From IMG/VR virus record IMGVR_UViG_3300028883_000277, positions 1 to 26,191 of that record: DNA of 26,191 nt, one strand, 5' to 3'. Below the pieces are notes generated by a model. That model was not told where the DNA came from, did not search any database, and saw only the letters and a program-made list of their open reading frames with translations. Each line of letters begins with the position of its first letter. The stretch's first letter is position 1. This stretch comes from a virus. Position numbers and translations under genes: made by a program. Positions 94 through 11,739 of the stretch are shown here, one piece after another.

Positions 94-597
94 CTACCAC
101 AAGAGACCGGTCCTCTTTCGTTGCTCTTTCACAGACTGTTTGTGAAAGTCAACGAGTATGGCAGCAATCGCAACATCAACCTCGATACCTGTCTTTGTAC
201 CCTTCAGTGCCTCATCCGTGGTAAGGCTCTGCAACTTTTTCTTCATACCGGTCAGAGAGCCAGCAACGTTCTCCTCCCACCCGTCCAGCTCACCGGTAGA
301 CATCAATTTATGAACTCTCGTCTGGAGACGATTGAGAAAGTGATCCGCAACCCCACGGAACTTACGTTTCTCCCCAGATACATTTCTGTGACGGATAACA
401 CCACTTCCCGCCTTGGTTTCAATCGTGTTTGCCGGAATGAAGGGCATATTAGGCGATTTATCCCCTTCAGAAGCACTCAGATCCGCTTCAGGAGCCATTT
501 TCTCGGCTTTCTGGGTATCATCCCCTTGATTATCGTCTTGAGTCGATTCTAAGGCCTCTGAGGGAGTATTATTCAGCTTATCTTTCTCGTCTGCCAT
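94..597 (-). CDS. Unknown protein with acidic disordered N-terminus
   Basis: I do not recognise this 167-aa protein. Residues 1-50 are acidic and low in complexity (E, D, S, Q, N), probably disordered. The rest is more basic and helical (FRGVADHFLNRLQTRVHKLM, 80-99) and ends KRTGLLW, with a hydrophobic helix before it (VDVAIAAILVDF). The ATG at 597 follows GAGGAG by 9 bases and overlaps the glycosyltransferase by 20; the frame runs to 639 but has no better start. Its place between terminase/glycosyltransferase and the left edge could suit a head-assembly accessory protein, but nothing in the sequence proves this. Confidence 0.72.
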   Translation of the reverse strand: MADEKDKLNNTPSEALESTQDDNQGDDTQKAEKMAPEADLSASEGDKSPNMPFIPANTIETKAGSGVIRHRNVSGEKRKFRGVADHFLNRLQTRVHKLMSTGELDGWEENVAGSLTGMKKKLQSLTTDEALKGTKTGIEVDVAIAAILVDFHKQSVKEQRKRTGLLW

Positions 598-1282
598 GGT
601 TGATAACTCCTCTGTCTTCGAGGTATTGCCATACCTCATAGGTTATCGAATATCGTTCAGACTCACAATTCCACTGAGGGAGCCCACGATTCTCTTTCCA
701 ATAGGAGTCACGCAGGGTGCGGTGTCCTCCCCTCCGATGCTCCAGCCGATCAAAATCAGAATGGTCACGATGGTACAATGCTCCCTTCAGCAAAACTCTT
801 GTCTCGTACCCGTGCTTACGAATCCGTCGATAGAAGTCGTCATCGTCTCCGCCATACCCATAGATCAATTCATTATACCCGCAGGTAGCCAGCAGCACAT
901 CACGGTGCATAAAGATCGTACCGGTTGTGCCAGCAGGGTTCACTCTCCCGCCTCGGTAGGTGACATCGTGATTAGGGTCGAACGAGTCAAAGAAGCCCTT
1001 GGCGAAAGTTATATCCGAATCCGTAGCAACGATCCACTCACCTGAGCAAAACTCCAGCCCAAGATTCCGGGCGATGCACAAATTGAATAGGGTCTGCTTC
1101 TCAACCCGGAGTACCTTTATTCTGGGATCGGCAAACTTACGAAGTAGGTTAGAGACAGGTTGCTTCGAGGACCAATCAACAATAACGATCTCCCCGAAGT
1201 AATCAAAGGAAAGCCAGTTGGGTATACTATCATTGAGAAACAAATTTCGGTTCATGCAGGTACTAACGAGTGATACCTTCAT
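578..1282 (-). CDS. GT-A fold (GT2-like) glycosyltransferase
   Basis: Predicted nucleotide-sugar-dependent glycosyltransferase, 234 aa. The N-terminus VSLVSTCMNRN (3-13) is typical of GT2 enzymes, followed by VIVDWSS (33-39), ARNLGLEFCSGEWI (71-84) and the metal-binding DSD (88-90). The acceptor-side motif GYGGDDDDFYRR (142-153) matches the G.GGEDxDLxxR pattern of chondroitin-synthase and GalNAc-transferase-like enzymes. It is unrelated in fold to the GT-B enzymes at 5514-9630. It overlaps the terminase stop by 4 bases (ATGA), with GGAG sites just upstream, so it is made with packaging and probably virion genes. Virion or host-surface glycosylation is plausible, unproven. Confidence 0.88.
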   Translation of the reverse strand: MKVSLVSTCMNRNLFLNDSIPNWLSFDYFGEIVIVDWSSKQPVSNLLRKFADPRIKVLRVEKQTLFNLCIARNLGLEFCSGEWIVATDSDITFAKGFFDSFDPNHDVTYRGGRVNPAGTTGTIFMHRDVLLATCGYNELIYGYGGDDDDFYRRIRKHGYETRVLLKGALYHRDHSDFDRLEHRRGGHRTLRDSYWKENRGLPQWNCESERYSITYEVWQYLEDRGVINHGRRER

Positions 1283-3315
1283 CTCCTACGTCTCCTTTTC
1301 CCTCCCACACCTACTCGAACTTTCCTAACCTGAGTCTCGGAAGTGCTTCTCCGGTGGCCTCTCCGACGAGATATCGGTCGCCCATAGGTAGCTTCCTTGG
1401 TCTGTAGCATGTAAACAACACCAGCAACCGCATCAGCGCAGTCCTTCGACCCTCCAGCCGGATGGTCAATCTTCCCTTTTTCAGTCTTCTCCACCTCTCG
1501 CAACTCCTGAGCCAACGTAAGGTGTCTGGGAATCAAAAGCCGTTCGTCCTTTATTGACAGCTTAACCTCAGTATAAGGAGCAACTGAGGTGTCAACGGAC
1601 AGCACTCCTGATCTAATCCGGGCTTTCTTAAAAGCTTGAATCATCATAGTAGATTGATAGCTGTCCATCGTACTCCATTTGATAAAAAGTTCTCCCCTGA
1701 GCCACAGCACGAGGTCTCTAACGAGTTCAAGGTCTACTTCCCCGTTTGGAGGAGCCTTGACTCTCAAAACTCCGTCAATCTGATACATGGGAGCACGTAT
1801 ATCTCTCAACTCGACAAACTCACCGGTCTTCTCATTAAAGTATTTGGTAGCTGGCAGCAGCTTGTATCCGGTGATTCTTCCAATAGCAAGTCCAGCAGCG
1901 TCATTCGATACTCCAACATCGATATGAGCCGCAAACGGTAGCGTGGCGTCAACAATGTTGTTCTCCATGTAATCCCGGTTTACCAACTCCCAGAAGTCAG
2001 GTTCGTTCACGTCAACCACTCGGTCAATAATACATTCGTTATGCAGGAATAGCTGATTCCCAAACGTTTCCTCGAAGTTTAGTTGAGCCTGTTCGATCTG
2101 CTCCCGGTAGGGTATGAACGGATGTCTGGTCCCGGTGGCAATACCGGCAAGGTCACGCATGGCAGCTTCAATGTCCCTCTCAAACTCAGCCTTGTACTCG
2201 ACGGGAACCTCGATGACATCTTCCTCGTCGGTAGCCTCTGCAATCGATTGCACAATACGAGTCTGCTTCAGTTCGTTCCCGACCTCGATCAAGAATTTAT
2301 CCCCACAGAAACGATCTGCCGGGAGCACGTCCCATTGTGCGTATTTCATAACAAAGATAGTACTGTCCGTCGCAGCCTCATCCATCTTACGATCTGTGAA
2401 GTCACCGGGGTAATGTACGGAGGATATCAAGAGCAGCTTGCCGGGGAGTTTTCCCTTTTGCATGAATCGTGACTTCATACGTCGAATCAGAGCAGAGTAG
2501 ACTCTTTCCGCTTGGTCGTATTCCTCCTCGCCCGTGTGCTGTGTCCGCACAGAGTCCTGCGTCTTAGCCATGAAGTTCAACTCATCGATCATCCCACCAA
2601 AGACATTCATGCCTATGGCTCCGGTATCCGACCCTCCAATGGGCAGTACGTAGATGTTCTTAGGAAATCGCAACTCACTTAAAACCTTTGGATCGTACGG
2701 GAAGTTCCTTTGAAAGTAAGGAGACAGCTTCAGCCTCTCGGCAAACTGTCCAAACACAACTTTCTTGGCAAGCGTCTGCGTCATCGATTGCTGGATGAAA
2801 ACAATAGATGAGCCCGGAGCAAGGTCAAACTCCAGTTGCGGATTGTGAAAGCAGGATAGACGATACAGCATGTACCCAAGGGCAATATCAGCAAAGTAGT
2901 TCTTCCCAATACCGATAGCACCTGTGAGCACAGCTTCGATATAAGGGTCGCCCTTAGCCTCAAAAAGTCGTTCCAGCTCATACTTGATCTTCGGACGGAT
3001 ATATCCTTTCTGATTAAAAAATTCCTTAGACTCGGCAAACTCCTCTATGTCAACGATTCGGTCTACTCGCAGTCCTCTTGCCTGATGCAGAAACGAAAAA
3101 TCCTGCTCCTGTACTGCTCTGATCCAGTTCGACAGGAAGTCCCTCAAATCCTGCTGCATCATAATGCACGTACCGTCGATATTATGAGTAGGTACGGATT
3201 TTAAAAGCAGATCAAATGCTTTAGTCTCCGTCTGGGGTAAGCCAATACTATTAGACAGATCCACAAACTTCCTGACAGCATTGTTAAACTCGACACACGA
3301 AATGTTAGTCGTCAT
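1279..3315 (-). CDS. terL: Terminase large subunit
   Basis: Predicted packaging motor ATPase and headful/cos nuclease, 678 aa. The ATPase domain has a Walker A-like GAIGIGKN (132-139), with Asn in place of the usual Thr/Ser, and Walker B MIDELN (242-247). The RNase H-fold nuclease shows AHIDVGVSNDAAG with Asp466, MDSYQS with Asp551 and SKDCADAV with Asp628, the expected three acidic positions. The C-terminus is very basic (KRRRRR). The ATG at 3315 follows GGGAGGA. It overlaps the small subunit by 11 bases and the downstream glycosyltransferase by 4 (ATGA). A perfectly symmetric copy of the dyad repeat lies at 2239-2252. The portal gene is expected beyond the left edge. Confidence 0.93.
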   Translation of the reverse strand: MTTNISCVEFNNAVRKFVDLSNSIGLPQTETKAFDLLLKSVPTHNIDGTCIMMQQDLRDFLSNWIRAVQEQDFSFLHQARGLRVDRIVDIEEFAESKEFFNQKGYIRPKIKYELERLFEAKGDPYIEAVLTGAIGIGKNYFADIALGYMLYRLSCFHNPQLEFDLAPGSSIVFIQQSMTQTLAKKVVFGQFAERLKLSPYFQRNFPYDPKVLSELRFPKNIYVLPIGGSDTGAIGMNVFGGMIDELNFMAKTQDSVRTQHTGEEEYDQAERVYSALIRRMKSRFMQKGKLPGKLLLISSVHYPGDFTDRKMDEAATDSTIFVMKYAQWDVLPADRFCGDKFLIEVGNELKQTRIVQSIAEATDEEDVIEVPVEYKAEFERDIEAAMRDLAGIATGTRHPFIPYREQIEQAQLNFEETFGNQLFLHNECIIDRVVDVNEPDFWELVNRDYMENNIVDATLPFAAHIDVGVSNDAAGLAIGRITGYKLLPATKYFNEKTGEFVELRDIRAPMYQIDGVLRVKAPPNGEVDLELVRDLVLWLRGELFIKWSTMDSYQSTMMIQAFKKARIRSGVLSVDTSVAPYTEVKLSIKDERLLIPRHLTLAQELREVEKTEKGKIDHPAGGSKDCADAVAGVVYMLQTKEATYGRPISRRRGHRRSTSETQVRKVRVGVGGKRRRRR
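2239..2252. repeat. 14-bp dyad repeat, perfectly palindromic variant
   Basis: TGCAATCGATTGCA inside the large terminase gene (encodes QSIA there). One base from the main form and fully self-complementary. Confidence 0.8.
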
Positions 3316-4051
3316 CACTCTCCTCCCTTGCCGGTGGCCTCTTGAGCGAGTACGACCCATCATCGTTTATCCGCAACGTCAGAGCGTCTTCCTCCACAGC
3401 CCCAAGGAATCGCTGTGACATCTCAAGCATCTTCTGCCCTCCGTCCTGAAACTGTCCTAGCAGACCATCGAACTGATGTTTCATTAGAACATTGTACTCA
3501 CTTGGTTTCGAGTCACGAAGGCCGAGCTTCATCTCCATATTCAAGAACTCCGACAGCATACCGTCGAGCGTAGCAATCTCCTTGCCGGTGAATTTAAACG
3601 GGATAGACGACTTCTCCTTGTCTCTTAATTCATTGACACGTTCCATCTGTATTCTAATCAAGTCCACTTTCATCGCCATAGCATCTAACTTCTCAGCTAT
3701 AGCCTTGCCCCGGCGTCCGGCAAGTTCCTCCATTCTCTTTCGCTCTTTGTTCTTACGGTCCTCGCCTTGGTGGATCTCACCTATGACTTTCTTCCGCATA
3801 GAAGTGATAGCTCTTGCAAGCGATTTCACAGGGGAAGACTTCTGAGCACCCCACTCGATCTGGGCAACCTTGGCAATGTGGGCAGAACTCTGTCCGATAC
3901 GCAGCCGGTGATATACCTCAAGCAGTCGCTTGTCCGACAAGTACTTTAGCCAGTTACCTTTCCGCCCCGGTGGGGCAACGAGTTCCCGTATCTGTCTAAT
4001 AAGGGATTCGCCGGATAGGGCAACCATTTCATCTATTGACTGTTCTGGCAT
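3305..4051 (-). CDS. Probable terminase small subunit
   Basis: Probable DNA-recognition subunit of the packaging terminase, 248 aa, assigned mainly by its position directly before the large subunit. Residues 33-80 (NWLKYLSDKRLLEVYHRLRIG, then SSAHIAKVAQIEWG) look like a helix-turn-helix region; the middle (95-145) is a highly charged probable coiled coil, followed by helical oligomerisation-like segments and an acidic end (REESDDD). The ATG has GAGGAG about 9 bases upstream, within the end of the ParB-like gene. It overlaps the large terminase start by 11 bases. A one-base variant of the dyad repeat lies at 3815-3828. It could also be another phage DNA-binding protein. Confidence 0.65.
   Translation of the reverse strand: MPEQSIDEMVALSGESLIRQIRELVAPPGRKGNWLKYLSDKRLLEVYHRLRIGQSSAHIAKVAQIEWGAQKSSPVKSLARAITSMRKKVIGEIHQGEDRKNKERKRMEELAGRRGKAIAEKLDAMAMKVDLIRIQMERVNELRDKEKSSIPFKFTGKEIATLDGMLSEFLNMEMKLGLRDSKPSEYNVLMKHQFDGLLGQFQDGGQKMLEMSQRFLGAVEEDALTLRINDDGSYSLKRPPAREESDDD
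3321..3327 (-). promoter_or_regulatory. Ribosome binding site deciding the large terminase start
   Basis: GGGAGGA on the minus strand, 5 bases before the ATG at 3313-3315. It rules against the in-frame ATG at 3363, which lies deep in the preceding gene. Confidence 0.8.
3815..3828 (+). repeat. 14-bp dyad repeat, one-base variant
   Basis: TGCAAGCGATTTCA inside the probable small terminase gene (encodes KSLA). It is the same variant as at 13460-13473. Confidence 0.75.
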
Positions 4052-4057
4052 GTTTTA

Positions 4058-4921
4058 TCACTCCTCATCTTCGGCCAGTACCGAATCAATATCATCCTCA
4101 TCCAGTTGAGCTACGTCAAGATCTCCCCTGAACTTAGGAATGAACTTATCCAGTGGTGCCAGTTCCAGCAACTTACAGAGCACAGAGTCAAACGTGACAC
4201 CGTATTCGGTAACTTCCCGTGCCTTGTCTTGGAAGAACCGCAGCATCCTGCCGGGGATACGAACCCAGATGTGCTGTCTACCTCCAAAGTCAAGAATCAT
4301 ATAGTTGTACGGTACAGTATCACCGTACTTGGTAAACAATCGGTTGAGAACGGTTGTCAGGTCATCAACGGTAGTGATCTCATCCTTAGCCTTGTCGAAG
4401 TCCCGCTTCATCTCATCACTCGGCAGGGACTCACGAGCAGTTTTTATCATCTGCTCCAACTCAGTAGGGTCGGTAAACGCAAGGTGCTGTGCTACGTCCT
4501 CAAAATCGTGTCTTTCCATGAGGTCGGTAACCAAAGCAGTAAACTTTTTCCGGTTAAAAGTTCCCCTGAGCTTATCCATCTTAACGGTCAAGAACTTCCG
4601 CCTATCTCTGACAGAGACATCACTGTCCCCAACGTGTTCTTTGATTACAGCCGGGACTTGTGGCATGTCAAGTAGGGCAGCGACATCATACCTATGCTCC
4701 CCGTCTATAATCTCGTATATATACTCCGAACCTTCAGGCAGTGACGCAATAACGAGAGGCTGCAAGAAGCCCTCCTCCTGAATGTTTCGGGTCAATTCGT
4801 TAAACGTATCAGGGTCCAGCTCATTCGGATTCCAATCATTCGGACGGATCTCTTTCAGATCGACCAGCACGAAATCAGGTACGTGGACTGTATCGTCCAT
4901 ATCGTATGTGTCTTTCGCCAT
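4058..4921 (-). CDS. ParB/sulfiredoxin-fold protein
   Basis: Predicted ParB-superfamily protein, 287 aa. Residues 17-95 match the ParB N-terminal nuclease/CTPase-like domain: LVDLKEIRPNDWNPN (19-33), GFLQPLVIA (51-59) and the GEHRYDVAALL box (74-84). The remaining two-thirds is helical without a clear ParB helix-turn-helix, and the acidic C-terminus contains DDIDSVL, similar to the DDIDDLL tails of two other proteins here. Phage ParB-like proteins act in DNA partition, as nucleases or in packaging; the gene lies 6 bases upstream of the terminase genes. No ParA gene is in the window. The ATG has AAGGAGGT just upstream. Confidence 0.85.
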   Translation of the reverse strand: MAKDTYDMDDTVHVPDFVLVDLKEIRPNDWNPNELDPDTFNELTRNIQEEGFLQPLVIASLPEGSEYIYEIIDGEHRYDVAALLDMPQVPAVIKEHVGDSDVSVRDRRKFLTVKMDKLRGTFNRKKFTALVTDLMERHDFEDVAQHLAFTDPTELEQMIKTARESLPSDEMKRDFDKAKDEITTVDDLTTVLNRLFTKYGDTVPYNYMILDFGGRQHIWVRIPGRMLRFFQDKAREVTEYGVTFDSVLCKLLELAPLDKFIPKFRGDLDVAQLDEDDIDSVLAEDEE

Positions 4922-4938: not shown

Positions 4939-5517
4939 CTATAATCGTTTAGGCAAAGTTTTAGGATGCTCCTTCGTGCGGACAAACCTAAGAAGATATG
5001 AGGATAGCAAAGCTTCCTTGAATACCAACAGGTAGTACGGTTCCAGCAGCCTTATAATATCACTCGTTTCGATATCCCATAAATGGTGTGAATTAAAGTG
5101 GGTCGTCTTAAACCGAGGGTGAGAAACGATTATCTCTCTCGGCCTTACTCGTTCTATCATGTGAGAAAAGTCTTCCGGCACACGCAGATGCTCAATGGTT
5201 TCCAGCGAGACAAGAACGTCAATCGGCAACTTCATCTGATCCCGTAACTCACAGCACCGAAACGATACATTATCGTCCTTATAGTGCTTATTGGCGTGAT
5301 CGATTGCTTCCTTACTGAAGTCAACACCGATTACCATCTCAACGTCAGGATTCTTAGAAAGTAGGTAGGAGCCATACCCACACCCGCAAGCAATATCCAG
5401 AACTTCTCCCCAGACAAACCTCCGGGCCAACATATACTGATGGATATGGTTCTTGATGATAACTTCTTCCTCTAACTTGTCAACCGCATCCCTATCTCTG
5501 AAAATTCTTTCGATCAT
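4939..5517 (-). CDS. SAM-dependent class I methyltransferase
   Basis: Predicted small-molecule or glycan methyltransferase, 192 aa, with a Rossmann SAM-binding fold. Motif I is VLDIACGCGYG (39-49), the acidic residue after strand 2 is in GVDFS (Asp66), and the motif around strand 4 is VSLETIEHL (103-111), typical of the Methyltransf_11/UbiE-like group. There is no DPPY or PCQ motif, so it does not look like a DNA adenine or cytosine-C5 methylase. It overlaps the glycosyltransferase stop by 4 bases (ATGA) with AGGTGAG upstream. By position it may methylate a sugar installed by the neighbouring enzymes, which is inference. Confidence 0.88.
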   Translation of the reverse strand: MIERIFRDRDAVDKLEEEVIIKNHIHQYMLARRFVWGEVLDIACGCGYGSYLLSKNPDVEMVIGVDFSKEAIDHANKHYKDDNVSFRCCELRDQMKLPIDVLVSLETIEHLRVPEDFSHMIERVRPREIIVSHPRFKTTHFNSHHLWDIETSDIIRLLEPYYLLVFKEALLSSYLLRFVRTKEHPKTLPKRL

Positions 5518-6986
5518 GGCTCACCTGCACTATTCGTCACCCAGAGTTTTCGGCCTCCCGGCATAAGTCCGATCTCTTTATGAGCATAACGTTTTAACAT
5601 CTTTGCTACCCACAACCGGGAGTACATACCAAAAGACTTGCCACATGCCTCGTTCAGCTTTGTGAATAGCGTATCAAAGTCAACTGGTCGTATATTCTTT
5701 TTATCCAGACGTTTAAAGACAGGCTCAAAGACTTTGAAGTTCTTGCCATTGAATACACCTTCTGATTTTTTAACAACTTCGTCTATCAGCGGCATCAGCG
5801 ATGCCCTCACTTCTCTATCACTGTGCCTCTCGTAAACAACATCACAGGCCCACGTGTAGGCTTTCTGAGCCGCAGTCTTATACTCATCCCGTATCTGCAA
5901 AATCATAGTAACCAATTCAGGCACCGCCACAGATTCAACATAAAAAGGAGTCAGGTTACCCGGATCTGTCCAGCCCTCCGAATACTTATTGTTCAACCAA
6001 ATCAGGGGCTTACCACTCATCATGTATTCAGTAAAGACAATCCTTGGCCCATCATCCAACTCCCTAAGTGACACTCCGACATGAGCCTTCATCCACAACT
6101 CATGGTAGTTATCCGGTAAGTGGTAGTAATCAACAAAAGCCTTAGCACCCCGGAGCACCTTCTTGGTCCACTCGGTCTCGGCACTTGTCGAGCAGACTAT
6201 CAGCCGGATGTCTTCTCCCATGGCGTTTAGTTTCTTGAGCGCATCAATAGTCACCTCAGCCTGTTTTGGAATACCCTCTCTTTCGTTCCCAAACCCACCA
6301 GCAATCATCAAATAAAAGGGCTTGGACCTCTGCCATTTGTGATGATGGGGAATTGACGGTGGGCTTTCTGGTCTCCACTTATGATAAACATTCCGTAATC
6401 CAGTACGCTGATAGGCTGGTGACATAATCCTTCGCATCTGAACTTTGAACAACTGAGCATTGTACGGAGAGGAAAAGACACAGGGTCCAAAACTGGCACA
6501 GTAAGCTTCCAGAATTTCCATAGACCTGAGCCATGCAGAGTCACCGGCAGGGTTACGTCTCCATTCCTTTTCGGATAAAGCCAGTTCAAAGAACGTAATA
6601 ACCGCAGGTTCAGTCCCACCATATCCACCGTCCCGCAGCATCCGCTGCATACCAACAGTCATCTGCGTATTCCAGTTTAGGATAAGGTCATACGGTAGGG
6701 GAGAACGTCTGGTGGTCAGATACTTATGCAAGTCCTCGCTGTACGTCCCGGCACCCGTCAGGGGATCACGAACAAGGTCAACTGGGATAGCCATCATTTT
6801 ATCCCGATCCCACCCTTCTAACGATTCGTACTGAATATCTTTTGGCACCATCAATAAACAGTTAATATCATTTTTCAGAGCACGGGCAAGACGAACTGCC
6901 TGTTTCACTCCAGCAGGTACGGAGTACTGGGTCTTATGTGCTCCGATCACTGAATGACTTGGTAAGAATAGTACAGTATGTCTCAC
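5514..6986 (-). CDS. GT4-like glycosyltransferase, paralogue 2, with C-terminal extension
   Basis: Predicted GT-B-fold glycosyltransferase, 490 aa, paralogous to the gene immediately upstream (shared IAGGFGNEREGIPKQA at 228-243, VCSTSAETEWT at 264-274, SLRELDDGPR at 306-315 and GKPLIWLNNKYSEGWTDP at 325-342). It differs by a C-terminal extension from about 410 that includes PVDFDTLFTKLNEA (434-447), KMLKRYAHKEIG (462-473) and a final KLWVTN strand, which looks like a winged-helix-type module. The start is GTG overlapping the previous TGA, with AAGGAG 7 bases upstream. Tandem duplication followed by divergence is the simplest origin. It is coupled to the methyltransferase by an ATGA overlap. 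Confidence 0.87.
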   Translation of the reverse strand: MRHTVLFLPSHSVIGAHKTQYSVPAGVKQAVRLARALKNDINCLLMVPKDIQYESLEGWDRDKMMAIPVDLVRDPLTGAGTYSEDLHKYLTTRRSPLPYDLILNWNTQMTVGMQRMLRDGGYGGTEPAVITFFELALSEKEWRRNPAGDSAWLRSMEILEAYCASFGPCVFSSPYNAQLFKVQMRRIMSPAYQRTGLRNVYHKWRPESPPSIPHHHKWQRSKPFYLMIAGGFGNEREGIPKQAEVTIDALKKLNAMGEDIRLIVCSTSAETEWTKKVLRGAKAFVDYYHLPDNYHELWMKAHVGVSLRELDDGPRIVFTEYMMSGKPLIWLNNKYSEGWTDPGNLTPFYVESVAVPELVTMILQIRDEYKTAAQKAYTWACDVVYERHSDREVRASLMPLIDEVVKKSEGVFNGKNFKVFEPVFKRLDKKNIRPVDFDTLFTKLNEACGKSFGMYSRLWVAKMLKRYAHKEIGLMPGGRKLWVTNSAGEP

Positions 6987-8161
6987 TTTATGACTCCTTC
7001 AAGTATCGGTTTTATTGCATCCCTCCACGAATCCCGGTGGTGACGATTGCAAGCGATTGCACCCTGACGTAAGGCAAGCTCCGCAGCCTCCTCATAATTC
7101 CTCATACATCTAATCATAGCGTTCGAGACTTTTTTAAGGTCGTGCTTGTTCGCATGGTAGGGCATCAACTCCGGGTCGGTCCACCCCTCAATATAGCGGT
7201 TGTTGAGCCATATAACAGGCTTCCCATTCATCATCATTTCCGACAGTGTAAACCTTGATCCATCACTGATCTCTCGCAGGGCAATACCAATATGTGCTCG
7301 GTCGAATAATTCAGCATAGTTATTTGGCCTGTAAAAGAAACTCGTGAAGGAACGAAAGGGCTTTAGAATCCTATGGGTCCAATCACTCTCCGGTGTACTG
7401 GAGCAGACAGTCAGCTTGACCTTATACCTCAGTCTCCTTAACTTTTGGAGCACCCGGAGAGTCGTCATTGCCTGTTTGGGTAGCCCTTCCCTACCCGGAC
7501 CAAACCCACCAGCAATAAGTACCTCAAACACTCCATTCTTAGGCTTACTGTGTCGTCGCAACTGGGCAACAGGAACTATCGGATTCCAGATGAAAACTAC
7601 ATTTGCCAGAGCCTTGCTGGATAACTCAGAACTAAAGATACTGGGGATCTGGCGCATTATAATATTGTAATCGTCTGGGTTATGCAGCATCAACGGTCCA
7701 TCGATTGCTGCTCCAGCTTCAAGAATTTGTAAAGCGTGAGTAAACTCCCATTGACCTATCGGGTTGCGGTCCCACTCGGCAACTGAGGAAGGGTTGTCAA
7801 TGGTAGTCACTATCGGTGGGCAATCAGGCAGTGACCTGAGCCACATAGTCATCGCAGCGTTGTAGTTGAAGACTACATCATATCGACGGATCAGCGGGTA
7901 TATCTTTTTCGTAAACCGTACTGTTCGAGCGCAGCCCATGGTTACTTCTTTGGGTACGTCTGCATTGATAGGGCGCAGGGAGGGCGTCCAGTTGCTTATT
8001 AAATTGACCTTCAATCCATCTGGGATCAGTATATGGGTTTCATGGAGATCGGCCAAGATAGAGCCGGTAAGGACGCCCTGTTTTAAGTCCATCCCGACAA
8101 TCCGAGACTTATCCTGCTGCTTGATAATATTGTGAACCGGTATGACTAGTATTCGAGCCAT
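6983..8161 (-). CDS. GT4-like glycosyltransferase, paralogue 1
   Basis: Predicted GT-B-fold glycosyltransferase, 392 aa from ATG 8161. It is clearly paralogous to the next gene: both contain IAGGFG..REG.PKQA (217-231 here), a VCSS/VCSTS strand followed by E(S/T)(D/E)WT, a LRE(I/L).DG element and GKP(V/L)IWLNN(R/K)Y.EGWTDP. The donor-binding region has an ExnE pattern (ALREISDGSRFTLSEMM). Substrates cannot be told from sequence. The ATG is chosen because it overlaps the previous stop as TAATG and has GAGGG just upstream; an in-frame ATG at 8176 is less likely. A 14-bp dyad repeat lies near the 3' end (7048-7061), encoding AIAC. The gene overlaps the next by 4 bases (GTGA). Confidence 0.88.
   Translation of the reverse strand: MARILVIPVHNIIKQQDKSRIVGMDLKQGVLTGSILADLHETHILIPDGLKVNLISNWTPSLRPINADVPKEVTMGCARTVRFTKKIYPLIRRYDVVFNYNAAMTMWLRSLPDCPPIVTTIDNPSSVAEWDRNPIGQWEFTHALQILEAGAAIDGPLMLHNPDDYNIIMRQIPSIFSSELSSKALANVVFIWNPIVPVAQLRRHSKPKNGVFEVLIAGGFGPGREGLPKQAMTTLRVLQKLRRLRYKVKLTVCSSTPESDWTHRILKPFRSFTSFFYRPNNYAELFDRAHIGIALREISDGSRFTLSEMMMNGKPVIWLNNRYIEGWTDPELMPYHANKHDLKKVSNAMIRCMRNYEEAAELALRQGAIACNRHHRDSWRDAIKPILEGVIK
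7048..7061 (+). repeat. 14-bp dyad repeat, main form
   Basis: TGCAAGCGATTGCA near the 3' end of a glycosyltransferase gene (encodes AIAC). Confidence 0.9.
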
Positions 8162-9630
8162 TATTCCCTCACCCATACAGGCATTTCAGTGTTGCACGTG
8201 TCCCGGTAACCCATCTTACGCATATACCATGAGTATAGCAGTCTCGACGGAAAGAGCCTTGCTTGAATGTTAGCAATATCCAAATTGTTGCGAGACTTCT
8301 CCCTAACGAATCTCCGCAACTGGTTGAAGGTAATCTTCCGTCCTTTCTTCACCTTCTTTAACGGTCCCAACGTATCAGTGATATAGGCAGGGTATCGGGC
8401 CAGTTTCGTTCGCTTCTTAACTTCGGACTCTATGTGATCTATAAAAGCATCGTTACGGTCAGGCGCACCCCTCTGGGAAATATGCTCTTGGCAGCTCCCG
8501 ACCAAATCAGGATACTTCGGGTCTTTGTAGTATCGATCCGCAACTTCTCGGATCATCGCTTCGCATTGAGCCGGAGACTTGTAGATATAAGGATATCCCT
8601 TCGGAACTAAGTCCAGACACCATCTACGGTTAGGTAGTATTCCTAAAAGCCCAAGGTACAACTGCTCCCATACCGAGGGCGATGTCTCCCCTTCCCTATC
8701 GGGTGCAATAAAAGCATGACACTCCTTGAGCTTGGCAAAGAATTGAGACTGAGGTAGGTGTACGTATCGTTCAACTCCGGGCCACTTCAGCATGTGGTCT
8801 GGAATATCAGTGTTGGCGCTCTGGCTGGTAGCAGTGATAACCATCTTGACGTTGCGGCCAGCAGCATACATCTTCGATACTCGTCTCACAAACGATTCAA
8901 ACTTGTATACGGTTGACTCCGCATTAGCGTAGTTAAAGGCGAGGTTTTTATTCTTACGTCTCTCCTCCACCGACAATACGTGTGGGTTCAACTTTTCAGG
9001 AAATAACGAGGAGCAGAACTTCAGAGCATGCATAGGACCGAGTGCTTCTTTCATCGCAGCCGGTGACAGGTACTTCCGGGCCGAGGCTTTAAGCATCTCT
9101 ATCTCCCAATCACCCCACGTCACGTTAAAACATCCGATCATACTCAATGCCTGAGCTACCTCAAACTCTTTGTAGTGGGCTCCTGATGGATTCTTAGGAG
9201 AGAAGATGTACGGAATAACGTTGTAGACAGGCGGGTTGACGGACATTCGGTATCGGTCCACAGGCGGGAAAATGTTATTTTGAAGGTATACCGTAGCCAG
9301 ATGTCTACCTGTAATGATAGCGTCATAGTGGTAGACACCATTGTTGGTCTCTCTGAAAAGATCGCAGAACTTATCTTCGATACGGGATAAGAAATGGTAT
9401 GTCTTACGACTGAGACCATCGGCAGAGTCAATATCGATCCACTTAATCTCTGGACGTTCTATGATGCCGGGGTTGGATTCGAGAACTGATTTCGTATAAC
9501 GTCTTGGAGCACACCAGTATACGAAGTGGCCCCTGTCGCAAGCTCTCGTAATAAAGTGCTTGGCCCAATGAAAGACACTGCATGTAGCCATATTCGCAGA
9601 TGTCGGATACATTAAATAGACGATTCTCAT
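8161..9630 (-). CDS. GT-B-like glycosyltransferase with C-terminal extension
   Basis: Predicted glycosyltransferase, 489 aa, of GT-B fold. The N-terminal Rossmann-like half starts RIVYLMYPTS and the C-terminal half contains a nucleotide-sugar-binding-like segment APDREGETSPSVWEQLYLG (309-327). Glu315 and Glu322 stand in an ExxxxxxE pattern related to GT4 enzymes. Residues from about 420 form an additional helical domain (ITFNQLRRFVREKSRNN, then a WYMRKMGYRD stretch) that resembles the C-terminal extension of the glycosyltransferase at 5514-6986 in general layout. The ATG has GGAG 6 bases upstream; a 14-bp dyad repeat fills most of the 26-base gap before it. Its TAA overlaps the next ATG (TAATG). 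Donor and acceptor are unknown. Confidence 0.8.
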   Translation of the reverse strand: MRIVYLMYPTSANMATCSVFHWAKHFITRACDRGHFVYWCAPRRYTKSVLESNPGIIERPEIKWIDIDSADGLSRKTYHFLSRIEDKFCDLFRETNNGVYHYDAIITGRHLATVYLQNNIFPPVDRYRMSVNPPVYNVIPYIFSPKNPSGAHYKEFEVAQALSMIGCFNVTWGDWEIEMLKASARKYLSPAAMKEALGPMHALKFCSSLFPEKLNPHVLSVEERRKNKNLAFNYANAESTVYKFESFVRRVSKMYAAGRNVKMVITATSQSANTDIPDHMLKWPGVERYVHLPQSQFFAKLKECHAFIAPDREGETSPSVWEQLYLGLLGILPNRRWCLDLVPKGYPYIYKSPAQCEAMIREVADRYYKDPKYPDLVGSCQEHISQRGAPDRNDAFIDHIESEVKKRTKLARYPAYITDTLGPLKKVKKGRKITFNQLRRFVREKSRNNLDIANIQARLFPSRLLYSWYMRKMGYRDTCNTEMPVWVRE

Positions 9631-9641
9631 TCCTTACTCCG

Positions 9642-9655
9642 TGCAATCGCTTGCA
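9642..9655 (-). repeat. 14-bp dyad repeat, main form, intergenic
   Basis: The main form on the minus strand, filling the 26-base gap between the radical SAM stop and the next gene. It ends one base from the GGAG ribosome binding site (9637-9640). Confidence 0.9.
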
Positions 9656-9656
9656 A

Positions 9657-10631
9657 TTATAAAAAGTCTCGATGCTCCCAAAACATAGCGCATTGTCCTT
9701 GACTGTTAAACTCCTCGTACGCATCTGCATAAGCCATGTATCGACACGGTGGACACTTAGTAATGTCAGGCTGTAGTTTATGACGTTTTAACCAAAGTTC
9801 ACGAAACGTAGTAGTCTTATGTAAGTTCCCGGCAACATGAACTCCCCGCCATTGACAACAGAAGCATACCTCAGCGTTGGCAGTAACGATCCCGACCAAA
9901 CCAGCCATTTTACATGGTAGATTATTCTGGGCCACCGAACGGGTAGTCTCAATAATAGAAACGTCTGACTCCGCAGTCGGCATCTCATACTCATCATAAC
10001 CTATCCCTGATCTGCCTGTACTACCCTTTAGATACGCAGGTTTGAACTGGATGTACTCCAGATCCAACTCTTTCGCCACGGCCTCCGCCTCTCCCATACT
10101 CTCAACATTCTCTCTGCATACAACGAATGAAGCCCCGACAAAAGCTCCTCTGTCCTTCGCATAACGCATCCCATCGAGAACTTTCTCAAATTTATCTGTA
10201 CCTTTCAGGGCAGCGTAGGTAGCAGGGTTGCCAGCGTCCAGAGATACCCGGATAAATTTAAAGAGCTGAGGAGTCTTAACGTCTTTCAACATTGTCCCGT
10301 TGGTAACAAGTCCAATATCAAACCCGGCTTGCATTGCCAGTTGAGCCATGTCGTTAAACTCCGGGTGTATTGTTGGCTCCCCTCCCCCAGTGAAAGTAAT
10401 CGACTTGCAGCCAACATCCCTCAACTGGAATACCAAACTGGAAAAGAGAACAAAATCAAGTAACGAGCGATCCCTTGACCGGAAGTCTTCAAACATGCAA
10501 AACGAACAGTTAAGGTTGCAGACGTTCGACACGTCTATTTCGCACGATATAGGCATTACAGGATCTCCATTGGCAGCAGCCCTCATAGAAGCGTAGTGAT
10601 AAAAAGTCTTACCTGTCATTAACTTATTCAT
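9657..10631 (-). CDS. Radical SAM protein, SPASM-like C-terminus
   Basis: Predicted radical S-adenosylmethionine enzyme, 324 aa. The [4Fe-4S] motif is CxxxCxxC: Cys38, Cys42, Cys45. The GGGEP motif at 82-86 is the SAM-binding signature. Later features include LVTNGT (108-113) and IRVSLDAG (127-134). C-terminal cysteines (240, 256, 258, 259, 293, 296, 314) suggest an auxiliary cluster of the SPASM/twitch type, as in enzymes acting on peptides or sugars. The ATG has GGAG 7 bases upstream. Three glycosyltransferase genes and a methyltransferase follow with minimal spacing, so it probably belongs to a glycan- or modification-forming pathway. The substrate is unknown; no precursor peptide gene was seen next to it. 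Confidence 0.92.
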   Translation of the reverse strand: MNKLMTGKTFYHYASMRAAANGDPVMPISCEIDVSNVCNLNCSFCMFEDFRSRDRSLLDFVLFSSLVFQLRDVGCKSITFTGGGEPTIHPEFNDMAQLAMQAGFDIGLVTNGTMLKDVKTPQLFKFIRVSLDAGNPATYAALKGTDKFEKVLDGMRYAKDRGAFVGASFVVCRENVESMGEAEAVAKELDLEYIQFKPAYLKGSTGRSGIGYDEYEMPTAESDVSIIETTRSVAQNNLPCKMAGLVGIVTANAEVCFCCQWRGVHVAGNLHKTTTFRELWLKRHKLQPDITKCPPCRYMAYADAYEEFNSQGQCAMFWEHRDFL

Positions 10632-10648: not shown

Positions 10649-11680
10649 TTATTTTTCAGATCGTTTCTGGAGTATCCACCTGACGCCCCCACGGATGTCT
10701 TCTTCCATAGACTTGTCCCAGAGACTTTTGGTAGCTCTGGCGTCATTGGTTCCGTAGGTCAAGTGGTGTTTCATCAACGGAATCCACCAAACAGTATCGT
10801 AAGGGTCGAACTGCGTGGCTGACTCAAATCCATGAGTCTTCCATCGAATTAGGCTTTTCTCCATCACGCCTGATGCACAGAAGAACCAAATCATGTAAAA
10901 ATTCGACGGTTCGAGACCGGGATATTTTCCCATCTTATGTTTCTCGAATATTCGGCCACCGATTTTCCCGGCTTGGGTATGCATATCGAAGCAATACCAT
11001 GGCAAAGTAACGGTCTTTGGTTGTCGCTTCCGTCGAATACGCTTATACCAACGTTTCGCACCGGCCTTGATGTCTGCTTTAGTGAATTGCGGATTGAGCC
11101 CACGAAAAGAGATAAGCATCATGACGGACAAGCACGACATCCGGTCACCGAGCATCCCTCCCATGCCCACACGTTTCCGCACAAGACGTATGGCGTTGCG
11201 TTCGTAATCTGTTATTTTCCCACGAGGAGAACTTATCACACACTCCTCAAATAAAGAATCCACAACGGTTGTCGGATCATCATTTTCGATCTTATCATGC
11301 AAAATTTTGACGTTCCGCAATTCATAATGATTCCATTGCTCAGGCGTGAAGTTCTCACTTGGGGCATTAATTAGCATTTGAATCGGCGCATCCTTGGACT
11401 TGGTAGCAAGGGCAAGTTGGTAAATAAATTTTCGATACTGAGCTTCCTCTGTCGGCTTACTCTCATAGAACTCATGTAGTTCACCGAGCATAGGCCAGCA
11501 CTCCTCGAAGACAAGTACAGTCAAACGCCATTTGAGCCAATTCCTCTGTTGCTTATCATTCCAGAGTATATCGAAACACGTCTTAACGAGATCGAGGTTT
11601 CCCCGGCGAATACCCTTCTGGATTCCACTCCTCGCTCCGTATAGCAGATCATCTGGTGATATATTCACTTTTCTCGGCAT
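10649..11680 (-). CDS. Unknown protein, clamp-loader collar-like N-terminus
   Basis: Unknown 343-aa protein without a Walker motif. The N-terminal stretch SGIQKGIRRGNLDLVKT (18-34) followed by LKWRLTVLVFEECWPMLGE (49-67) resembles the C-terminal collar domains of clamp-loader subunits and RarA/MgsA (pattern: QKAIRRGN...WRLLVIAEED). This suggests a non-catalytic clamp-loader or collar-type subunit, as gp62 is in T4, but it is inference. The second half is basic and aromatic-rich (KRWYKRIRRKRQPK at 209-222, then WWIPLMKHHLTYG). The ATG has GGAG five bases upstream and a strong promoter before it. No polymerase or sliding clamp gene is visible in this window. Confidence 0.8.
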   Translation of the reverse strand: MPRKVNISPDDLLYGARSGIQKGIRRGNLDLVKTCFDILWNDKQQRNWLKWRLTVLVFEECWPMLGELHEFYESKPTEEAQYRKFIYQLALATKSKDAPIQMLINAPSENFTPEQWNHYELRNVKILHDKIENDDPTTVVDSLFEECVISSPRGKITDYERNAIRLVRKRVGMGGMLGDRMSCLSVMMLISFRGLNPQFTKADIKAGAKRWYKRIRRKRQPKTVTLPWYCFDMHTQAGKIGGRIFEKHKMGKYPGLEPSNFYMIWFFCASGVMEKSLIRWKTHGFESATQFDPYDTVWWIPLMKHHLTYGTNDARATKSLWDKSMEEDIRGGVRWILQKRSEK

Positions 11681-11710: not shown

Positions 11711-11739
11711 ATTATATCAAAATGGTTTTGTCAAGTCAA
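11711..11739 (-). promoter_or_regulatory. Strong predicted sigma-70-like promoter
   Basis: Minus strand TTGACT (11734-11739), 17-base spacer, TATAAT (11711-11716). A second, overlapping TTGACA (11730-11735) is 12 bases from the same TATAAT. It drives the 343-aa gene and probably the radical SAM/glycosyltransferase run. Confidence 0.7.

Follow-up and report, generated by a model that had tools for sequence, protein, structure and literature searches.

Why would a tailed phage carry a radical S-adenosylmethionine (SAM) enzyme, three glycosyltransferases (GTs) and a methyltransferase (MT) between its replication genes and its terminase, and what would be the acceptor of a sugar built by such enzymes? 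The question is raised by the IMG/VR virus record IMGVR_UViG_3300028883_000277, apparently a fragment, whose whole length of 26,191 bases is called the window here and sets the limit of our statements on its genes. A sequence-only reading had placed the five genes at 10631-4939 on the minus strand and regarded them as a dedicated pathway for an unusual sugar or a modified peptide or nucleotide. Judged from comparison with related phages, the conserved part of the locus is one GT plus a ParB-like protein, and attached to it is a sugar-tailoring slot that changes fast, of which the cassette of the window represents one variant. We tentatively propose, at a little less than an even chance, that this slot on a GT-ParB core belongs to the replication/packaging run of a group of tailed phages and that the phage's own DNA is the acceptor.

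The cassette runs head to tail from the radical SAM enzyme (rSAM) through GT1, GT2 and GT3 to MT, and is followed by genes for ParB, the putative terminase small subunit (TerS), the terminase large subunit (TerL) and a GT-A glycosyltransferase. The earlier boundaries enclosed the cassette correctly and left its conserved partner, ParB at 4921-4058, outside. ParB matched PF02195 with an E value of 1.6e-12, above the cut-off, and PHROG 26387 with an E value of 4e-52. Its best fold matches were Noc and ParB; the ParB/Noc fold is N-terminal, and beyond it the protein has its own conserved region. In the window, GT1 lies upstream of ParB in an unbroken same-strand run, at a distance of 3.2 kb because GT2, GT3 and MT stand between them. 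The nearest relative, L002, has two copies of the backbone gene p10649 and then a GT, an MT, ParB, TerS and TerL in the same order. The order GT-ParB-TerS-TerL was also found in phages of Rhizobium (RHph_TM16 and Y1_11), Agrobacterium (JP1), Vibrio (PG28, VH2_2019 and KarBoss), Stenotrophomonas (DLP3 and Summit) and Rhodobacter (RcKickapoo and RcZahn). The Arthrobacter phages DanielleIgnace and Kitkat, which have another backbone, carry the GT-ParB pair with a methyltransferase after it and no adjacent TerL of the window type.

The two genes also come and go together. In a profile comparison limited to sequence no more than about 9 kb from TerL, both GT and ParB were present in 13 related phages, and both were absent beside TerL in L003, L004, L006, SIO-2, 13VO501A and R30Z. 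The GT profile varied too much to be scanned against contigs, and viral contigs were searched with ParB only, a choice made to avoid circularity. This search gave 46 loci, several of them near-duplicates. A GT was located at most 1.8 kb upstream of ParB in 30 of the 41 loci that have at least 2 kb of upstream sequence; among the other 11, the GT was downstream in two and there was none in nine, six of which have a diverged ParB. Furthermore, GT distances and ParB distances correlated beyond what is shared with TerL (partial r 0.27, permutation p 0.0004).

The genes around this pair differ from phage to phage. The slot holds PIG-L, an epimerase, a DegT aminotransferase and an MT in DLP3, Summit, RcZahn and KarBoss, an epimerase and an aminotransferase in RHph_TM16 and Y1_11, PIG-L, WbqC and an MT in PG28 and VH2_2019, a SLOG-family gene annotated as DprA in JP1 and RcKickapoo, and a UDP-sugar-dehydrogenase-like gene in L042. 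In L043, a GT, an MT, a second GT, a cupin, Gfo/Idh, an aminotransferase and an epimerase are found downstream of ParB. These sugar-building genes support the sugar part of the proposed dedicated pathway. The GTs of the window and L002 share about 15% identity and their TerL proteins 62%; turnover is thus far more rapid in the slot than in the backbone. The five-gene set, for which related phages were to be searched, is not conserved: rSAM, GT2 and GT3 were found in none of the relatives' slots compared and in no other place, and only the GT and ParB are kept.

Two side observations concern genes of these slots. Vibrio phages that lack GT and ParB keep a WbqC-like gene upstream of TerL (L036:6569-7342, L039:6448-7188 and L041:6557-7297); WbqC by itself is thus not linked to the pair. 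In the DLP3 sugar cassette, DLP3_099 (L024:17296-17976), published as an Erm(45)-like methyltransferase, sits between the aminotransferase and the GT; it had no Pfam match at E 0.01, and its natural substrate may be a sugar.

All three GTs of the cassette can be assigned to the GT-B fold, as the sequence-only reading had it. GT1 had no Pfam match. An AlphaFold (AF2) model of GT1 built with 27 phage relatives (predicted template modelling score, pTM, 0.81) has a predicted GT-B fold with two Rossmann domains, and a fold search placed it nearest to GT4 enzymes (BshA, Z 24.2; PglA, Z 22.9). The GT of Arthrobacter phage Kitkat was among its best viral matches, with a template modelling (TM) score of 0.74. 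T4 AGT and BGT were not among the fold matches listed, which excludes nothing. The two tandem paralogues are GT2 and GT3, which share 31% identity over 403 columns (E 1e-68). Their joint profile aligned over its full length with the GT1 family (hhalign 98.9%, E 1.3e-17), and the cassette therefore comprises three GT-B, GT4-like enzymes of one broad family. Searches of viral and genome contigs with the GT2/GT3 profile gave no relatives; GT3 alone found none in viral contigs, and GT2 none in phage records.

The first enzyme of the cassette belongs to the radical SAM superfamily, with a CxxxCxxC motif at residues 38, 42 and 45, a GGGEP motif and a match to PF04055 (E 1.5e-18). It had been called SPASM-like. 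The superfamily holds and its C-terminal cysteines (residues 240, 256, 258, 259, 293, 296 and 314) do have a SPASM-like spacing, but no SPASM model matched. The closest solved enzyme is cytosylglucuronate decarboxylase (E 2e-10), with similarity over the core only (residues 35-191). The protein fell below every NCBIfam cut-off, scoring 49 against a cut-off of 400 for BlsE. A PADLOC listing as a prokaryotic viperin was rejected, since the NCBIfam score was 54 bits against a cut-off of 180 and below those of several other radical SAM families. No relatives of rSAM were found in viral contigs, and phage records gave distant matches only, at 28% identity or less. Among 50 relatives, the radical SAM family gave only three matches, none of them in the slot occupied by rSAM. 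MT is of the small-molecule type, as had been described (Methyltransf_25, E 7.5e-11), with a UbiG-like match (E 1.4e-11) under the cut-off, and it could not be aligned to the methyltransferase of L002. No membrane segments were predicted in the cassette.

The minus strand carries nearly all the main genes of the window (Table 1). Genes for a DnaB-like protein, primase, helicase, RecA, a PD-(D/E)XK nuclease and an AAA protein precede p10649, so the cassette does lie between replication/recombination genes and the terminase as described before, in a run that is longer and extends from p10649 through GT-A. Within this run, no two neighbours are separated by more than 26 bases and some overlap, with a 63-base gap ahead of p10649. 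The minus-strand open reading frames agree with the earlier description of five genes joined by overlaps or a 26-base gap: the gap separates rSAM and GT1, and the overlaps are 16 bases for GT1/GT2, 4 for GT2/GT3 and 4 for GT3/MT. A predicted sigma-70-like site just before p10649 is the likely start of the run. From these small gaps and this site we infer that the cassette, ParB and the terminase look like parts of one transcript.

Table 1. Positions of the predicted features of the run in the window, in order of transcription
Feature	Coordinates	Strand	Basis or remark
Sigma-70-like promoter, TTGACT-17-TATAAT, extended -10	11711..11739	-	Consensus scan 11/12; candidate start of the run
p10649, conserved protein without assigned function, backbone gene	10649..11680	-	Two copies in L002; also in relatives without GT and ParB
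Radical SAM enzyme (rSAM), 324 residues	9657..10631	-	PF04055, E 1.5e-18
GT1, GT-B glycosyltransferase of the ParB-paired family	8161..9630	-	AF2 model, fold search, profile
GT2, GT-B glycosyltransferase	6983..8176	-	31% identity to GT3; hhalign to GT1 family 98.9%
GT3, GT-B glycosyltransferase, GT2 paralogue, GTG start	5514..6986	-	GT2 paralogy; hhalign
Class I SAM methyltransferase (MT), small-molecule type	4939..5517	-	Methyltransf_25, E 7.5e-11
ParB-like protein, conserved GT1 partner	4058..4921	-	PF02195, PHROG 26387, Noc/ParB fold
Putative terminase small subunit (TerS-like)	3305..4051	-	Position and homology to the same gene in relatives
Terminase large subunit (TerL)	1279..3363	-	tblastn to annotated phage terminases, E 1e-90
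GT-A glycosyltransferase overlapping the TerL end	578..1282	-	Glycos_transf_2, E 5.5e-9; Glyco_transf_7C

The first gene of the run, p10649, had no Pfam match; it is duplicated in L002 and present in close relatives, and we take it to be vaguely reminiscent of the C-terminal part of RarA/MgsA ATPases. At the other end of the run, a further GT-A enzyme indeed follows the terminase; this gene was not seen after TerL in L002. The TerL of L042 (L042:9650-12613) has 987 residues, with an insertion of about 300 residues bearing HNH-like sequence in the ATPase region, and the insertion looks like an intein. Eight of 16 related records (DLP3, Summit, TM16, Y1_11, PG28, VH2_2019, KarBoss and RcZahn) share a pyruvate-phosphate-dikinase-like protein encoded downstream of TerL, in most cases close to a phosphatase, and such a protein is also annotated in Vibrio phages without GT-ParB.

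What, then, is the acceptor? Virion proteins, the host envelope and DNA had all been named, and none had been chosen. DNA is favoured because the GT is paired with ParB and because the pair is positioned inside a run of DNA-replication and packaging genes. The ParB of the window also matched DNA-methyltransferase families (PHROG 498, E 1e-13; PADLOC type II methyltransferases, E about 1e-5), and in L051 the GT before ParB is replaced by an N6_N4_Mtase-like gene with a DPPY motif (E 6e-4, under the Pfam cut-off). ParBc proteins occur alongside the DNA base-modifying CmoX in phages (PMC12783734). The DNA of DLP3, which carries the module, was reported to be uncut by 15 enzymes (PMC7326821). Considering the site counts, this resistance was not accepted as strong evidence, since only five of the enzymes are informative (SmaI with 68 sites in the DLP3 genome, ClaI with 18, EcoRI with 7, NdeI with 4 and XbaI with 1). 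If a single modified base explained all of the resistance, SmaI sites, which consist of C and G only, would restrict the choice to these two. No restriction data for GT-ParB-negative Vibrio relatives were found in the literature searched.

Several results weigh against DNA as the acceptor. The other ten of the 15 enzymes tried on DLP3 have no sites in its genome. The ParB loci L044, L050 and L051 score strongly yet have no GT of the GT1 family, and no biochemical test of any member of the GT or ParB family was found in the literature searched. No known base handle was recognised in the relatives either. With valid controls, a ThyA-type hydroxymethylase (PF00303) was found in none of 16 related records (the window itself being a fragment), a C5 cytosine methylase (PF00145), as expected for TET/JBP-based cytosine glycosylation, in none of 27, and QueC (PF06508), as a sign of 7-deazaguanine DNA modification, in none of 24. 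Furthermore, the window contains 184 six-base palindromes where 345 were expected, a ratio of 0.53, and the median ratio of the GT-ParB loci was 0.62, near that of the unmodified T7 (0.59) and away from those of T4 (0.94) and SP-15 (0.95). This strong avoidance suggests that the DNA of the window has been exposed to type II restriction. Ordinary glycosylation of bulk DNA as in T4 is thus disfavoured by the missing handle genes in complete relatives and by the palindrome avoidance.

These two tests have their own bounds. The DNA of T4, SP-15, phiW-14, Vi01 and M6 is modified, and the ratios of the last three are 0.77, 0.80 and 0.47; the palindrome test is therefore not absolute, because the hypermodified M6 avoids palindromes as well. 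Host-matched Vibrio phages showed no clear difference, with ratios of 0.59-0.71 with GT-ParB and 0.63-0.77 without. A TET/JBP dioxygenase (PF12851) gave no match in 16 records, but the control genomes gave none either. Two other candidates for a handle were rejected. ThyX occurs in only six of 27 records. DLP3_141 (gp141, L024:40757-41533) is annotated as a thymidylate synthase, a name that PHROG 17568 bears, but its Pfam matches are to dual-specificity/tyrosine phosphatase families, and the annotation looks wrong.

Because palindromes are still avoided and complete relatives encode no known base handle, a modification of DNA would probably be partial or site-directed. In this restricted form, through an unrecognised handle, DNA is the best single answer, and we hold it with not quite even confidence. 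GT1 would transfer a host nucleotide sugar, probably onto the phage's own DNA, and the ParB-like protein, with its predicted CTPase/DNA-binding fold, would provide the DNA-binding or loading function. The sugar may be lengthened or branched by GT2, GT3 and possibly the GT-A enzyme, and altered by rSAM and MT. The acceptor chemistry would be of an unrecognised kind, and changes of the sugar could help the phage to evade modification-dependent restriction. The most specific version, in which ParB guides site-directed DNA glycosylation, the core is kept while tailoring enzymes are swapped, and in the window rSAM remodels the sugar and three GTs build up an oligosaccharide on the DNA, seems to us possible but doubtful.

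The serious rival is virion glycosylation, in which the GTs would decorate capsid or tail proteins with a tailored sugar and ParB would have a separate, GT-coupled role, for example in packaging. The slot adjoins TerS-TerL, portal and capsid genes follow soon after in JP1 and RcKickapoo, and the turnover of the GTs, far above that of the backbone, is what an exposed decoration would show. The lack of an encoded base handle and the persisting palindrome avoidance are also in its favour, and virion glycosylation by phage GTs is known from some mycobacteriophages. However, a tblastn search with GT1 at E 0.01 gave no relative in mycobacteriophages, and neither the regular DNA-binding partner nor the DNA-methylase-like gene in the place of the GT in L051 would be explained; we consider virion glycosylation rather unlikely. 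A change of the host envelope, with the GTs altering lipopolysaccharide (LPS), capsule or another surface glycan and thereby blocking superinfection, is improbable. In its favour, the folds nearest to that of the GT belong to envelope and small-molecule GT4 enzymes (PglA, BshA and WaaG), the slot sugar genes resemble O-antigen genes (WbqC, WecE/DegT and WcaG-like), and LPS was proposed as the target of the DLP3 GT by the authors of that phage (PMC7326821). However, the cassette has no predicted membrane segment, neither a flippase nor a polyprenyl transferase was recognised, the run sits with replication and packaging genes and has ParB as partner, and the same pair occurs in phages of both Gram-negative and Gram-positive hosts.

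Two further explanations were considered. ParB might be a phagemid partition protein that adjoins the GT by chance; lysogeny in a phagemid state is considered possible for DLP5 and DLP3, both of which have ParB domains (PMC7326821). The GT beside ParB in 30 of 41 loci that were found through ParB alone, the occurrence of the pair in more than one backbone and its joint absence from relatives make this very improbable. A pathway centred on rSAM for a ribosomally synthesized and post-translationally modified peptide, or for a free natural product, would fit the SPASM-like cysteines and the methyltransferase in the same run. The gaps of at most 26 bases leave no room for a precursor gene inside the run, rSAM is far under every peptide-maturase cut-off, and the relatives hold sugar genes, not peptide genes, in the slot. 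We regard such a pathway, the peptide half of the earlier claim, as extremely improbable.

The preferred reading, modification of the phage's own DNA, can be set beside known systems. T4 DNA glucosylation, by a dCMP hydroxymethylase and alpha- and beta-glucosyltransferases, likewise has phage GT-B enzymes among replication genes and a possible anti-restriction role. Unlike T4, the window and its relatives have strong palindrome avoidance, a ParB partner and extra sugar-tailoring genes, and the complete relatives have no hydroxymethylase. SP-15, with its glycosylated hypermodified thymine, also has several GTs, which are among the weaker fold matches of GT1, but there is almost no palindrome avoidance in its DNA. 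In the CmoX systems for cytosine carboxymethylation, a ParBc protein is recurrently linked to a phage DNA base-modifying enzyme (PMC12783734), but that enzyme is a carboxymethyltransferase accompanied by an amide ligase, whereas a GT with sugar genes is found here. Among sugar-acting radical SAM enzymes, the cytosylglucuronate decarboxylase BlsE is the nearest solved one to rSAM by sequence, a likeness limited to the core, and its substrate is a base-attached sugar. The closest parallel in layout is the PIG-L-epimerase-aminotransferase-MT-GT-ParB-TerL locus of the Delepquintavirus phages DLP3 and Summit, with the same slot, the same GT and ParB families and the same position before the terminase; PIG-L, the epimerase and the aminotransferase stand where the window has rSAM, GT2 and GT3. 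Phages were already known to carry GT-B enzymes, ParB-domain proteins and sugar cassettes. No description of a GT-ParB core with interchangeable sugar genes beside the terminase was found in the full texts searched, which excluded most subscription journals, and the form with rSAM and three GTs was seen only in the window.

Phages that infect Stenotrophomonas, Vibrio, Rhizobium, Agrobacterium, Rhodobacter and Arthrobacter have the GT-ParB pair in common, and because many of these phages have been cultivated, the target of the pair is directly testable. For a DNA target, the pair would represent a class of phage DNA modification without a known handle enzyme and with a changeable sugar; for a virion target, it would mark a widespread locus for capsid or tail glycosylation that is linked to the terminase. 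Either target would explain several genes that are now annotated as "hypothetical", "nucleoid occlusion" or "LPS".

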